In this document: piece by piece, positions 1,924 through 11,924 of the stretch | Position numbering within the stretch: the stretch's first letter is position 1 | How the letters are laid out: each line of letters begins with the position of its first letter | Assembly (NCBI GenBank): GCA_016285515.1 | Contig: JAEEQW010000002.1 | Coordinates: 62,001-126,000, forward strand | Direction of reading: 5' to 3' | DNA: 64,000 nt | From: Bacteroidales bacterium | GTDB taxonomy: Bacteria > Bacteroidota > Bacteroidia > Bacteroidales > BM520 | Notes under the pieces: generated by a model | The model's input: the letters and a program-made list of their open reading frames with translations, nothing else | Told to the model about the DNA's origin: nothing | Databases searched by the model: none | Position numbers and translations under genes: made by a program

Positions 1924-1951
1924 GTAGAGACGCACGGCCGTGCGTCTCTAC
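1924..1951. repeat. Perfect 28-nt palindrome GTAGAGACGCACGGCCGTGCGTCTCTAC
   Basis: Read directly; arms GTAGAGACGCAC/GTGCGTCTCTAC around GGCC, between two convergent genes. Confidence 0.9.
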
Positions 1952-1967
1952 ATGACAGAAACAAAGG

Positions 1968-3287
1968 TTAGTTCTGACGGACAGGTCGTACACTGTAGCC
2001 ACGGTTGCGGAAGTTGAAGTAGTACAAGTAGCAATTTTTGCCCACCTCGAAGTAGAGGTCCCACGCGTTGCCCGGATTGTCGGTGTAGAGCGAACTCGAC
2101 CAGTAGTAGCCGTTGGAACAATCATTGATGAGCTTACTATCCGAACGGTAGCCGGCAGCAGGCAGGAAAAGCATTTGGCCGTTCTTCGCCGTGAACAGCC
2201 TGCCCTGCACCCCATTCTGCGTTGTCCACTTGTTTGTAGTGTTCTGCAACAGCTCATCCCATTGCTCTTTAGTGGGCATACACCAGCCAAGGCCCCTGTT
2301 GGCTGTAGCCGCATCATCACTCGACTGGAGGACAGTCTGGTTATCGGTGAAACTGTAGGTAGTCTTGCTGTAGGTGGTCTTGGGTTGGGTCTCACCCCAA
2401 GCGAAATAGTCGCCATACTCCTCTGGAGAGTTTGCACCAACATTACACGTCGCCCACAAGGTACCGCTCGGCAGACCGAGGTCAACGTAGGCATGCTCCT
2501 CCAACTCGACCTTTTTTGCCTTCACCTCGGTGACATAGCGGCCTTGAGGATAGATTTTCAAATAACTGACGCAGCCAGAAATGGTAGTACATTGCTTGTA
2601 GGCAGCATCCTCCTTATCATTATCATTGAGTAACAGGACAGGACGCACTGAGAAGCCATTGTTTCGAATGGATCTGGCCATGTAGCAGCTGCCCGCCATG
2701 AAGTAGAGATACTGTGCGTAGGGCGGATCGTAGATGTCAAGCGATCGAGACCAGTAGTAGCCATGATATCCTGCATATTTCCTGCACATAGGGTCAGCGT
2801 TTGTAGCGGCAGGCAGGAAAAGAGCCAGACCATTCTTCGCCGTGAACAGCCAGCCATACACACCATTCTGTTTCGACCACTTGTTCGTAGTGTTCTGCAG
2901 TAGCTCTTCCCATTGCTCCTTTGTAGGCATGCACCAGCCGCTACCCCACGAAGTGGCGGGGTCATCATCCGCCTGCAACTCAGTCAGTTTGTCAGTAAAG
3001 CGGTTCTTGCCATAGTTGCGATCAATGCAGTACTTGGTCAACTGTCTATCATTACCATTTTCACAATACTTGTAGGTGTCCCAGTTGTAAATGGTCTTCG
3101 GTTGGGTCTCGCCCCAAGCATAATAGTTGCCATACTCCTCTGGAGAGTTTGCACCAACGTTACACGTAGCCCACAAGGTACCGCTCGGCAGGCCAAGGTC
3201 AACATATTCGTGGTTGTTTTGAGCAAAACTCCGAAATCCGGCCATCAACAATGCGGCCATTACAAACAGATTAATGATTTTCTTCAT
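1968..3287 (-). CDS. Secreted protein with two tandem Fib_succ_major (TIGR02145/PF09603-like) domains
   Basis: Two copies of (H/E)xYVDLGLPSGTLWATCNVGANSPEEYG.Y.AWGETQPK...GYYWS.SL...SVRPV. Signal peptide MKKIINLFVMAALLMAGFRSFAQ gives the preferred start at 3287 rather than 3329. Confidence 0.88.
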   Translation of the reverse strand: MKKIINLFVMAALLMAGFRSFAQNNHEYVDLGLPSGTLWATCNVGANSPEEYGNYYAWGETQPKTIYNWDTYKYCENGNDRQLTKYCIDRNYGKNRFTDKLTELQADDDPATSWGSGWCMPTKEQWEELLQNTTNKWSKQNGVYGWLFTAKNGLALFLPAATNADPMCRKYAGYHGYYWSRSLDIYDPPYAQYLYFMAGSCYMARSIRNNGFSVRPVLLLNDNDKEDAAYKQCTTISGCVSYLKIYPQGRYVTEVKAKKVELEEHAYVDLGLPSGTLWATCNVGANSPEEYGDYFAWGETQPKTTYSKTTYSFTDNQTVLQSSDDAATANRGLGWCMPTKEQWDELLQNTTNKWTTQNGVQGRLFTAKNGQMLFLPAAGYRSDSKLINDCSNGYYWSSSLYTDNPGNAWDLYFEVGKNCYLYYFNFRNRGYSVRPVRQN

Positions 3288-3362
3288 GATAAATTTACTT
3301 AATAATCTCAATCGGTGGATTCCCCACACCGTTTGTGCATATGTTTATACATAAATATGTTT

Positions 3363-4259: not shown

Positions 4260-4321
4260 AAAAAGTTGTCGGACGGGGTTGAGTGGCGCACTCCCGTGCG
4301 CACCCCGCCCTACAACTTTTT
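4260..4321. terminator. Long nested bidirectional hairpin terminator between DUF2442 and convergent Fib_succ gene
   Basis: AAAAAGTTGT...CGGGGT...GCGCA-CTCCCG-TGCGC...ACCCCG...ACAACTTTTT. Confidence 0.75.
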
Positions 4322-4362: not shown

Positions 4363-5058
4363 TTATTTCTGACTCGCTGAACGCACTGCCCGGACGGATA
4401 AACCGCTATCGCGATCGATGTAGTCCACGACGTAGTAGTCCGAACCGAAGCCGAAACCCCACGCGCTGAACGGGTAGTCCGTGTTGAGCGAACTCGACAA
4501 GTAGCCGCAATCCGAGCCAACGTATCTGATCTCGTCGCACCAACGGAAGCCCGCAGCGGGCAGGAAGAGACTGTTACCGTTGCTCGCGGTGAAGAGCCTG
4601 CCGTTCACACCATTTTGGGTAGTCCATACACTATTGGTATTGTCCCGCAATTCTTCCCATTGGTCAGCTGAGGGCATGCACCAGTCGCTGCCCCAGTTGG
4701 CTGTGGCCGCATCGTCACTCGGCACCAAGGTGGTCAGGTTGTCGGTGAAGCCGTTGTTGCCATAATCAGACTTGTTGCAATACTTCGTGAGCTTGGCATA
4801 ACCACCGTTGCAGTACTTGTAGGTAGTCCAGATGTAATCATCTTTCGGTGCAGTTTCACCCCATGCAAAATAGTCGCCATACTCCTCTGGAGAGTTGGCC
4901 CCAACGTTGCAGGTGGCCCACAGCGTGCCGCTCGGCAGACCGAGGTCAACGTAGTCGTGGTCATCGTTTTCCTCTGTGGGTTTGCATCCCGCGGCGAACA
5001 CCATTGCTGCTGTAATTAGCATGATGATTGATAACTTTTGAAACTTTTTCATATTCAT
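4363..5058 (-). CDS. Fib_succ_major domain lipoprotein (paralog B)
   Basis: Lipobox VFAAGC; DHDYVDLGLPSGTLWATCNVGANSPEEYGDYFAWGET...LFLPAAGF...LSVRAVR. Confidence 0.88.
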   Translation of the reverse strand: MNMKKFQKLSIIMLITAAMVFAAGCKPTEENDDHDYVDLGLPSGTLWATCNVGANSPEEYGDYFAWGETAPKDDYIWTTYKYCNGGYAKLTKYCNKSDYGNNGFTDNLTTLVPSDDAATANWGSDWCMPSADQWEELRDNTNSVWTTQNGVNGRLFTASNGNSLFLPAAGFRWCDEIRYVGSDCGYLSSSLNTDYPFSAWGFGFGSDYYVVDYIDRDSGLSVRAVRSASQK

Positions 5059-5135: not shown

Positions 5136-5195
5136 CATTTTATTTTCTCATTTCCAACAGTTTAATGATATTTTTTTTGCGGTGTGAGTGGAAAT

Positions 5196-5218
5196 AATAT
5201 ATTGATATTCAATATATT
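5196..5218. repeat. AT-rich inverted repeat AATATATTGA-TAT-TCAATATATT
   Basis: 10-bp perfect arms, 3-nt spacer, read directly. Confidence 0.75.
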
Positions 5219-5335
5219 GTGATTAAAATTTATACCTAATCCGCTCCACATCACATGCAGGCATTAAGAAAAAACGTAATTGCAGATGCGGTTACTATCG
5301 GAAATGCCCAGGAAAGCTCCAAAGTTTGTTCCATA

Positions 5336-6700
5336 TCAAATCTTTCCCACAGCATATAGCGGCACAATGCGCACATGGCGGATTTCACTACGGTCTTGCA
5401 AGTCGGAATATTTGAATTCACCAAAGTTCTCCAACGAACAACGAACAGCTTCATGCAAATGCTTTTCCCTCATGAATGTCCAAAGGCTTTTCATCCCGCC
5501 TTGAGTGCTGGATTTTACTTCGACAGGCAGCACTGCCATATCCTTGATTTGCAGGTAATCCACCTCGGCCGTGCTGTTGCCTGTCTTTTCCCAATAGAAC
5601 AGTTTCTCCCTTTGGATAGGGTTTTTGTATCGAACTATCTCAAGTCCGGCAACCATTTCCGTAATCGCGCCTTTGTTGACAAGGTCGTGGGGCGAACCAA
5701 CCATGATGAGCTCTATTAGTTGACGTGATTCTGCAAGGTCGAGTTGCAGCACAGATAGTAGCAGTCCTGGGTCAAGGAAAAGGTACTTAGCCCGATGGGA
5801 TTTGGATTCGGCGTCCAAAGGAATGTCGTTGGCTGCGGTTGCAATCACGGGAGTGATAATGCCAGCATGTGTCAATTGTCGCAAGGCTTCCCTGATGTTT
5901 TGGCTTCTTACATCTCGGGCAATTCCCGTTAAAGAAATGGGGTTGCCGATTTGATGACAAACACCGCGCATAACGACACGAAGCAGGTCGGGATTGGCGT
6001 TCTTCTTGTATTTGTTGAAGTCGTCCTCGTATGTGAGAATGATGTCGTTTTGAACTTTTTGGCAGCGTAGGAAATCTTGGTTATTTACCCATGCAGCTAC
6101 GGATTCGGGCATTCCGCCTACCATGAGATAAATGCGGTACAGTTCAACAAGTTTATTATGAAATGGTAAGTCGAGCGGATGTTGGCTGTCGGCCATGTCA
6201 CGCATGGAGGCAATTCCTTGGTTACCCGTGGCATCAAGGAATTCGTCGAAGGTCATGGGGTACATAAACAATGAATGAATTCTACCCACGCCGAAAGCAG
6301 GTAGGTTTTCGAGGGTGAACTCAAGAAGCGAACCTGCGGCAATGACATGCAAATCAGGATAGTCTTCTTTGAAAAAACGTAATGCCATGATTGCCTCTGG
6401 ACAATCTTGAATTTCATCTAAAAACAACAAAGTTTTGCCCGCCTCAATAGGGACATTGATGTATTTTGAGATTTTGCCGGCAATCAGTTTCACGTCAAGG
6501 TCACCGGAAAAAAAAGTCTTAGCCTCTCTTTGACGCTCAAAGTTGATCTCTGCAAAATATTTGAATTGTTTTCCCAAATGTCTTGCAGCGGATGACTTTC
6601 CAACCTGACGCGCCCCTCGCAAAAGCAGAGGTTTGTGTGTGGAATCATCCTTCCATTCGATGAGGTATTTGTCTATAATTCTGCTGAAGTATTCTTTCAT
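5336..6700 (-). CDS. AAA family ATPase with DUF4143-type C-terminal domain
   Basis: Walker A LLLRGARQVGKSSAARHLG, Walker B-like TLLFLDEIQDCPEA, AAGSLLEF; C-terminal EVDYLQIKDMAVLPVEVKSSTQGGMKSL. Confidence 0.9.
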   Translation of the reverse strand: MKEYFSRIIDKYLIEWKDDSTHKPLLLRGARQVGKSSAARHLGKQFKYFAEINFERQREAKTFFSGDLDVKLIAGKISKYINVPIEAGKTLLFLDEIQDCPEAIMALRFFKEDYPDLHVIAAGSLLEFTLENLPAFGVGRIHSLFMYPMTFDEFLDATGNQGIASMRDMADSQHPLDLPFHNKLVELYRIYLMVGGMPESVAAWVNNQDFLRCQKVQNDIILTYEDDFNKYKKNANPDLLRVVMRGVCHQIGNPISLTGIARDVRSQNIREALRQLTHAGIITPVIATAANDIPLDAESKSHRAKYLFLDPGLLLSVLQLDLAESRQLIELIMVGSPHDLVNKGAITEMVAGLEIVRYKNPIQREKLFYWEKTGNSTAEVDYLQIKDMAVLPVEVKSSTQGGMKSLWTFMREKHLHEAVRCSLENFGEFKYSDLQDRSEIRHVRIVPLYAVGKI

Positions 6701-6911: not shown

Positions 6912-7931
6912 TCAGTTCTGACGCGCGGCGCGCACTGCCCGGACGGATCGACCGTCGCAGCGTTTGCTTCGGTACGTGTAGCAGTAGCTGCCCGAATCGA
7001 AGTAGAAGCTCCACGCATCGAACGGGTAGCTCGTGCAGAGTGAATTCCACCAATAGTAACCGTTTGAGTTATCGTTGTTGTAGAAATCGTCTTCCCGATA
7101 GTATCCAGCTGCAGGCAGGAACAGACTGTTACCGTTGCTCGCGGTGAAGAGTCTGCCGAACACACCATTACTGGTGATCGCCCATACAATATTGGTATTG
7201 TTCCACAATTCTATCCATTGGTCACCTGAGGGTATGCACCAGTCGTTGCCCCAGTTGGCTGTGGCCGCATCGTCATCCGACTCCAAGGTGGTCAGGTTGT
7301 CGGTGAAGTAGTTGTTGCCATAATCAGACTTGTTGCAATATTTCGTGAGCTTGACAGTATCACCGTTACAGTTACAGTACTTGTAGGTACTCCAATTGTA
7401 ATAGGACTTCGGTTGGGTCTCGCCCCAAGCGAAATAGTCGCCATAACCTTCGGGAGTGGTCGCACCAACGTTGCAGGTGGCCCACAAAGTGCCACTCGGC
7501 AGACCGAGGTCAACATATTCATGGTCGTCGCCGCCACCACCGTTCTCCTTGGTGGTGAAGCTCTTGTCCTCTCCATAGTAATACTCCGAGCCACACAGAG
7601 CGTATGCACGGACATGATAGGTCGTTGCGGGCGCAAGTCCCGTAATGACGCAAACGTATGACTCGCTCCAGTTCGAGATGGAAAGATGCGAGTCCTCCAC
7701 AGTAGGCTCGCTGTCCGTACCCCAACACACTCCAAGTTCAGTCAGCGACAGACCTTGGCTAACAATTACAGCGCCACCACATACTGCGGTCGTGCTTGTA
7801 ATGTACTGTGGCGTGTGGGTGGTCACCTTCACGTCCGAATCGTTGTCCTCTTTGGGAGTGCATCCCGCAGCGAACACCACCGCTGTCATTAGTATGATGA
7901 TTGATAACTTTTGAAACTTTTTCATATTCAA
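6912..7931 (-). CDS. Lipoprotein with FN3-like domain plus Fib_succ_major domain (paralog C)
   Basis: Lipobox VFAAGC; VKVTTHTPQYITSTTAVCGGAVIVSQGLSLTELGVCWGT...YHVRAYA FN3-like; DHEYVDLGLPSGTLWATCNVGATTPEGYG...SVRAVR. Confidence 0.88.
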   Translation of the reverse strand: MNMKKFQKLSIIILMTAVVFAAGCTPKEDNDSDVKVTTHTPQYITSTTAVCGGAVIVSQGLSLTELGVCWGTDSEPTVEDSHLSISNWSESYVCVITGLAPATTYHVRAYALCGSEYYYGEDKSFTTKENGGGGDDHEYVDLGLPSGTLWATCNVGATTPEGYGDYFAWGETQPKSYYNWSTYKYCNCNGDTVKLTKYCNKSDYGNNYFTDNLTTLESDDDAATANWGNDWCIPSGDQWIELWNNTNIVWAITSNGVFGRLFTASNGNSLFLPAAGYYREDDFYNNDNSNGYYWWNSLCTSYPFDAWSFYFDSGSYCYTYRSKRCDGRSVRAVRAARQN

Positions 7932-8112
7932 TTGGTATTAATGAATCGTATATAAAACGTCAGTTCAATATCTTTCTCAATATATTTGTCGCTCACTTGA
8001 CCCAAATGGACTTTATGCAAGTGACAGGACAAAATTAAGAAAAAAAACGTAATTGCTCCCAAATCTGTCAACAATTTTCAGGAAAAGTCACATCTAAATG
8101 TAAGCTGGGGTT
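7932..8112 (-). repeat. Shared upstream cassette, copy U-C
   Basis: Near-identical to 8798-8979, ending in the same ..CTGGGGTT directly against the next gene's stop codon. Confidence 0.88.
8030..8037 (-). promoter_or_regulatory. -7 box TAATTTTG in U-C
   Basis: CAAAATTA on plus strand; same position relative to start as in U-D (about 99 nt). Confidence 0.5.
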
Positions 8113-8797
8113 AGTTCTGACGCGCGGAGCGCACTGCGCGGACAGACCGACCGTCGCGGCGGATGTCGTTGTACACGATGTAGTAGTCCAAACCGAAGTA
8201 GAAGAGCCACGCCCCGTTTGGGGAGTCCGTGCCGAGCGAACTCGACCAGTAGTCGCCGTACGAGCCAACGTCGCCGAGCTCGTCGTCCCAACAGAAGCCC
8301 GCTGCGGGCAGGAAGAGACTGTGACCGTTGCTCGCGGTGAAGAGTCTGCCGTTCACACCATTTTGGGTCGTCCATGCAACATTGGTATTGTCCAGCAATT
8401 CTCTCCATTGGTCAGCTGATGGCAGGCACCAGTCGCTGCCCCAGTTGGCTGTGGCCGCATCATCACTCGGCTCCAAGGTGGTCAGGTTGTCGTTGAAGCC
8501 GTTGTTGCCATAATCAGACTCCTTGCAATATTTCGTGAGCTTGTCATAACCACCGTTGCAGTACTTGTAGGTACTCCAGCTGTAAACGGTCTTCGGTTGG
8601 GTCTCGCCCCAAGCGAAATAGTCGCCATAACCTTCGGGAGTTGACGCACCAACATTGCAGGTAGCCCACAAAGTGCCGCTCGGCAGACCGAGGTCAACGT
8701 AGTCATGGTCATTGGGACCGCCACCACATCCTGCAGCGAACACCATCGCTGTCATTAGCATGATGAATGCTAACTTTTGAAACTTTCTCATATTCAA
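8111..8797 (-). CDS. Fib_succ_major domain lipoprotein (paralog D)
   Basis: Lipobox VFAAGC; DHDYVDLGLPSGTLWATCNVGASTPEGYGDYFAWGETQPK...SVRAVRSARQN. Confidence 0.88.
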   Translation of the reverse strand: MNMRKFQKLAFIMLMTAMVFAAGCGGGPNDHDYVDLGLPSGTLWATCNVGASTPEGYGDYFAWGETQPKTVYSWSTYKYCNGGYDKLTKYCKESDYGNNGFNDNLTTLEPSDDAATANWGSDWCLPSADQWRELLDNTNVAWTTQNGVNGRLFTASNGHSLFLPAAGFCWDDELGDVGSYGDYWSSSLGTDSPNGAWLFYFGLDYYIVYNDIRRDGRSVRAVRSARQN

Positions 8798-11492: not shown

Positions 11493-11890
11493 GGGGCTGC
11501 TCGGTTTTGACAGCAATGATAATGGATTTGTAAGCATGCCGGGTGACGATGATGAATCCCGTAAACAACCTCATCAAAACAATAAACGGCGAATATAACT
11601 ACGCTCTTGCTGCGTAAGTTGAAGGTTTAGTAAACTTATGCTTAATCGCTGCACAAGGTGCGGCGACGAGACATTCCGCGGATGGAGATGCCTGATTCCG
11701 GTCCGGTTACGGGGTGCGCGAAATTTCGGGCTGGCAACAGTGGAGCCTTGACACTGTTGTAAGATTAAGAGGATAAGGAGGAGTTTGGATGTGAGTTTCC
11801 GGGCTTTTCCCGACAATCAACAACTTACTAAGCATGTAGAAAGCACTTTTGTTAGTTGTTTGGACGCGGGTTCGACTCCCGCCAGCTCCA
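11493..11890 (+). ncRNA. ssrA: tmRNA (ssrA); tag ORF 11588-11617 encodes GEYNYALAA
   Basis: 5' GGGGCTG pairs with 3' CAGCTCC; T-arm GGTTCGACTCCCGCC; tag GGC GAA TAT AAC TAC GCT CTT GCT GCG TAA ends in the -ALAA typical of tmRNA tags. Confidence 0.95.
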
Positions 11891-11924
11891 CTTGGAAAGG
11901 GGTAAAATTACCCCGAAATACAAA

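Follow-up and report, generated by a model that had tools for sequence, protein, structure and literature searches.

The window, i.e. the whole stretch of 64,000 nucleotides that we analysed (positions 62001-126000 of contig C40, in the 2.58 Mb draft genome of a rumen-type bacterium, with 54 contigs and 98.4% completeness), carries several related genes on its minus strand. Paralogs B (4363-5058) and D (8111-8797) encode lipoproteins that are 77% identical to each other and possess a C-terminal domain of the FISUMP/Lcl_C type, resembling that of the targets of diversity-generating retroelements (DGRs), natural systems which overwrite a particular segment of a gene. Paralog C (6912-7931) belongs to the same family and has an extra N-terminal part, while the gene at 1968-3329 encodes a protein with two tandem FISUMP-type domains. 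The Lcl_C model recognizes only the two-domain protein above its cut-off (36.7 bits); D falls below the curated cut-offs of both models (Lcl_C 22.6 bits, FISUMP 17.7 bits), the B protein matched neither of them, and the C protein had no match in Pfam. The predicted model of D based on 42 sequences has a pLDDT of 94 (39 with five sequences), and its best PDB match according to Foldseek, a weak one (E 0.13), is the C-terminal domain of Legionella Lcl; a profile search against PDB sequences gave no meaningful match. Both DUF1566, the former name of Lcl_C, and Fib_succ_major often serve as target domains of DGRs (PMC4159848, PMC6642488).

The sequence-only reading had drawn attention to a hypervariable block of 147 nt, 4399-4545 in B against 8147-8293 in D, both on the minus strand and alignable without indels. 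The coordinates, the strand and the alignment are exact and the block is variable, but its limits were drawn too narrowly. According to a codon-for-codon alignment with the template repeat (TR) and variable region (VR) of an intact DGR from another genome (L119, see below), with limits taken from the LFLP codons, the VR extends from the codons for LFLPAAG roughly to the stop codon, i.e. over about 4366-4569 in B and 8114-8317 in D. The target genes are C-type-lectin-like (Lcl_C/FISUMP) and carry the VR at their 3' end. The VR of C lies at about 6921-7124, and the two-domain protein has old VR-like C-terminal ends at about 1968-2171 and 2619-2822, all on the minus strand. Further copies of the family are found on contigs C1, C20, C25, C38 and C41 and are named here after their contigs.

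A hairpin (4260-4321, minus strand) lies 41 nt downstream of the stop codon of B, with the tip GCGCAC-GGGA-GTGCGC at 4286-4301; the 110 nt downstream of B fold with -53.8 kcal/mol. The same arrangement follows the VRs of C1, C41 and L119, shorter hairpins follow C20, C25 and the 1968-3329 gene, and a hairpin of the B type is absent after the VRs of D and C. Loops of the GRNA type occur in the hairpins after B, C1 and C20. The DGR of Bordetella phage BPP-1, which diversifies a 3' VR in an adenine-specific manner, requires a hairpin with a 4-nt GRNA loop downstream of its VR (PMC3240598); that element is complete and its target is a phage tail fibre, unlike here. The hairpins after the VRs of B, C1, C41 and L119 resemble those of BPP-1 and may have a role in homing. 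A perfect palindrome of 28 nt, GTAGAGACGCACGGCCGTGCGTCTCTAC (1924-1951, minus strand), starts 16 nt downstream of the stop codon of the two-domain gene. The GTAGAGACGC palindrome is rare, with five exact sites in the genome, two of which follow VR genes (the 1968-3329 gene and the C20 gene), a weak hint of a link to such genes.

AAA-type ATPase genes recur near VR genes or VR fragments of this genome (5336-6700 in the window, L034:5592-7175, L035 from 6472, and L033:3946-5442). The window also contains, about 2.7 kb away from D, a tmRNA gene (11493-11891) whose tag reads GEYNYALAA.

Differences between B and D at template adenines

Our recount of the 147-nt block gave 42 differences, distributed 20/14/8 over codon positions 1/2/3; of its 49 codons, 24 carry non-synonymous changes and one a silent change (CCG/CCA), and 17 of the 24 altered codons retain their third base, mostly C. 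These numbers agree with the earlier estimates by eye (about 24 amino-acid changes and about one silent, about 34 differences at positions 1-2 against about 8 at position 3, many codon pairs keeping the third base). The dN/dS ratio, which had been proposed as a check, rises from 0.27 in the core (dS 0.32, dN 0.086) to 0.82 in the VR (dS 0.34, dN 0.28). Because the VR has the same dS as the core, the B-D pair by itself does not fully separate DGR action from diversifying selection and is suggestive rather than decisive; the separation comes from the other paralogs and from an external template.

A hypothetical AAC-rich template was deduced by hand from the paralogs with the AAC model in mind, and the formal tests use the TR of L119 instead. 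A search of Bacteroidales with the deduced template revealed A-rich repeats beside reverse transcriptases (RTs) in several genomes, some with an Avd-like gene. The closest is the complete DGR L119 (JAFUVT010000007.1, rumen Bacteroidales MAG RGIG4870), which comprises a target VR (5158-5353), an accessory gene (5499-6035), the TR (6191-6386) and the RT (from about 6383). Over 143 nt, its TR and the deduced template share 86% identity. Of the 196 positions compared between TR and VR of L119, 21 differ, and in 20 of these the TR has an adenine; the corresponding fractions for two further DGRs, L197 and L198, are 24/25 and 28/28. All three resemble our case in having a homologous target domain, AAC codons at the same VR/TR places and an accessory gene (and, in L119, the hairpin), but they possess a TR and an RT, while the genome studied here has only VRs and one accessory stub. 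To judge from its sequence, the L119 target (L119:3247-5352) is an apparent Ser/Thr protein kinase fused to a FISUMP domain, so that the variable domain may provide the input to a signalling protein. Another TR-VR pair, L138:6424-7069, has 27 of its 28 differences at TR adenines; its 12.6 kb locus contains no RT, the RT of that genome being located on another contig.

When the block is compared with the L119 TR, differences between B and D are found in 26 of the 45 columns with a TR adenine and in 16 of the 102 others (odds ratio 7.4, p=5e-7), and restriction to codon positions 1 and 2 leaves 26/45 against 8/53 (p 1e-5). When the TR is shifted in frame, no more than 21 differences fall on A columns in any of the 48 registers, and chance is rejected as the cause of the pattern.

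Framework and adenine columns in the other paralogs

In C1, C20 and C25 the variable codons are nearly all NNC, and the framework codons between them are mostly identical at the nucleotide level. The clearest pair is C1-C20, in which dS drops from 1.34 in the core to 0.07 in the VR, and differences occupy 30 of 48 TR-A columns against 7 of 144 others (odds ratio 33); this points to recent overwriting of the framework from one template, with the adenine columns randomised. Over the whole VR, the other pairs with the strongest signal are B-C1, which differ at 35/48 TR-A and 14/144 other columns, and D-C1, with 29/48 and 13/144; for D-C20 the counts are 29/50 and 15/145. Five pairs (C1-C20, D-C20, B-C20, C1-C25 and D-C25) combine a VR dS of 0.07-0.27 with a core dS of 1.3-2.3; such homogenisation is not seen in B-D, nor in C compared with B and D. 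Control pairs of FISUMP genes from other genomes mostly show odds ratios of 1.3-4 (with exceptions of 6-8) and a VR dS nearer to that of the core. Hence, the enrichment at A columns partly reflects variable loop positions, and homogenisation is the DGR-specific part of the signal. These paralogs and the external TR give strong support to the proposed adenine-directed mutagenesis of AAC codons as the origin of the variable block, which the B-D pair on its own did not; we read B and D as DGR targets.

Deviation from the framework consensus is graded: 1.5% in C1, 4.3% in C20, 5.7% in D, 7.8% in C25, 7.9% in B, 12.4% in C41 and 18.4% in C, the most decayed VR among those scored. The homing of C1 is recent, as its framework is close to pristine. 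Given this gradation, ordinary decay since their last homing is the best reading of the third-position changes in B and D, and the suggestion that DGR action on them was not very recent is supported.

Orphan VR 3' ends of about 40-110 nt that lack a target ORF are found on contigs C25, C44 and C50 of the same genome. Intergenic pieces of this kind lie at L030:4045-4165, L031:2473-2553, L032:3450-3502 and L033:2780-2818.

Missing machinery and the origin of the variable regions

The RT and template repeat that the sequence-only reading had suggested seeking in the same genome are both missing from the assembly. Searches with PF00078 (RVT_1) and two DGR RT queries gave no match in the 98.4%-complete draft, and none of four congeners, of which three have a completeness of 95% or more, yielded a DGR RT. 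The RTs of one congener (G001) were rejected as DGR RTs: they match these weakly or not at all and apparently represent other kinds. DNA queries with VRs and the deduced TR recovered only VRs and VR fragments from the genome, and a TR leader was not found there. The accessory gene (termed here "msl-like", the one used in the search) is represented by a mere 44-codon stub directly after the C1 target, at the place where L119 and its relatives have the full gene, between VR and TR. The full gene resembles domain I of MutS, though below the threshold. Stubs after VR genes are present in this C1 copy (L034:4685-4817) and in six other genomes (loci L208-L213). In the seven genomes they are cut near codon 42 or 60; three share a junction and the others look independent.

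We consider it likely that the VRs of B, D and their relatives are orphans of a DGR that was once present in this lineage and has since been lost. The former element would have transcribed a TR rich in AAC codons, its RT would have misread the template adenines, and the cDNA would have replaced the 3' ends of dispersed lipoprotein genes (B, D, C and the copies on C1, C20, C25 and C41). Each round would have made the framework outside the adenines uniform again while randomising the adenine positions, which would explain why the codons read NNC. The remainder of the accessory gene, the TR and the RT would then have been lost, and the VRs would have decayed by ordinary mutation, which would account for the third-position changes. 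The VRs presumably had a role in variable ligand binding.

The main rival to loss is machinery that escaped binning: RT and TR could reside on a plasmid, prophage or integrative element outside the bin and still serve the VRs in trans. A draft in 54 contigs with 98.4% completeness leaves room for an RT on such an element, the almost intact framework of C1 fits continuing service, and the C1 stub may mark the border of a cassette that was duplicated, rather than a DGR locus in decay. There are also precedents, since the L138 pair has its RT on another contig and trans activity was reported in Thiohalocapsa PB-PSB1, where degenerate or remote DGR loci likewise comprise dispersed targets without local machinery; that genome, unlike ours, contains complete DGRs (PMC10907252). 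In IMG/VR, 23 contigs (L225-L247) carry related DGR RTs, nearly all together with a TR-like stretch and the accessory gene of the msl-like type. Their TR-like stretches, however, share no more than about 60-80% identity with the deduced template, the VR 3'-end pattern had no match in viral and genome contigs, nor the AAC template pattern in viral contigs, and a plasmid search returned only RTs below 60% identity. We infer loss rather than incomplete sampling, because of the stub, the decay of the VRs (6-18% in B, C, D and C41), the hairpins missing after D and C and the congeners without DGR RT; the lack of TR and leader also speaks against continued service, which we regard as unlikely. Still less probable in our view is that DGR target cassettes (the target 3' end, the hairpin and sometimes an accessory stub) form a self-standing dispersing unit in many rumen Bacteroidales, present in genomes without RT and diversified only upon arrival of a trans-acting RT/TR on a mobile element.

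Strong diversifying selection on surface-exposed loop codons of duplicated lectin-like lipoproteins, with no DGR involved, could produce the rise of omega at equal dS in B-D, and FISUMP pairs elsewhere also vary preferentially at TR-A columns (odds ratio about 2-4). It fails to explain the low VR dS of the five pairs with strongly diverged cores or the agreement with an actual TR that lies next to an RT, and the C1-C20 and D-C20 comparisons speak against selection alone for the paralog set, making this reading very improbable. A shuffling of cassettes by gene conversion, with silent 3' copies as donors in the manner of antigenic variation, is hardly credible: the dispersed copies and ORF-less orphan ends would suit it, but these ends are short, conversion would homogenise the adenine columns as well as the framework, whereas in C1-C20 the framework alone is homogenised and 30/48 A columns differ, and the pairwise counts revealed no donor tract matching a recipient at the A columns.

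Probable orphan targets of a retroelement

Remnant DGR targets without RT or TR, most of them lipoproteins, have already been described in Treponema denticola (PMC4891356); what is new here is a further, clean case. Treponema belongs to another phylum and has a different DGR, and its TR is documented in other isolates of T. denticola, while ours comes only from another Bacteroidales genome. DUF1566 (Lcl_C)/Fib_succ_major targets from the human microbiome have the same kind of domain, and one is a predicted lipoprotein, but they are accompanied by TRs (PMC4159848). Targets such as those in our window are missed by surveys that start from the RT. Of 35 other genomes with relatives of these proteins, only four gave a match to a DGR-type RT, of which three were close and one was distant, so that targets which are retired or served in trans may be frequent in rumen Bacteroidales. 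The history of a DGR can be read in genomes that lack a reverse transcriptase, as the template can be deduced from dispersed VRs and checked against a real one elsewhere, and the VR copies can be ranked in age by the decay of their framework. Such graded ages within one lineage allow one to ask whether diversified receptors stay useful after their mutator is gone.
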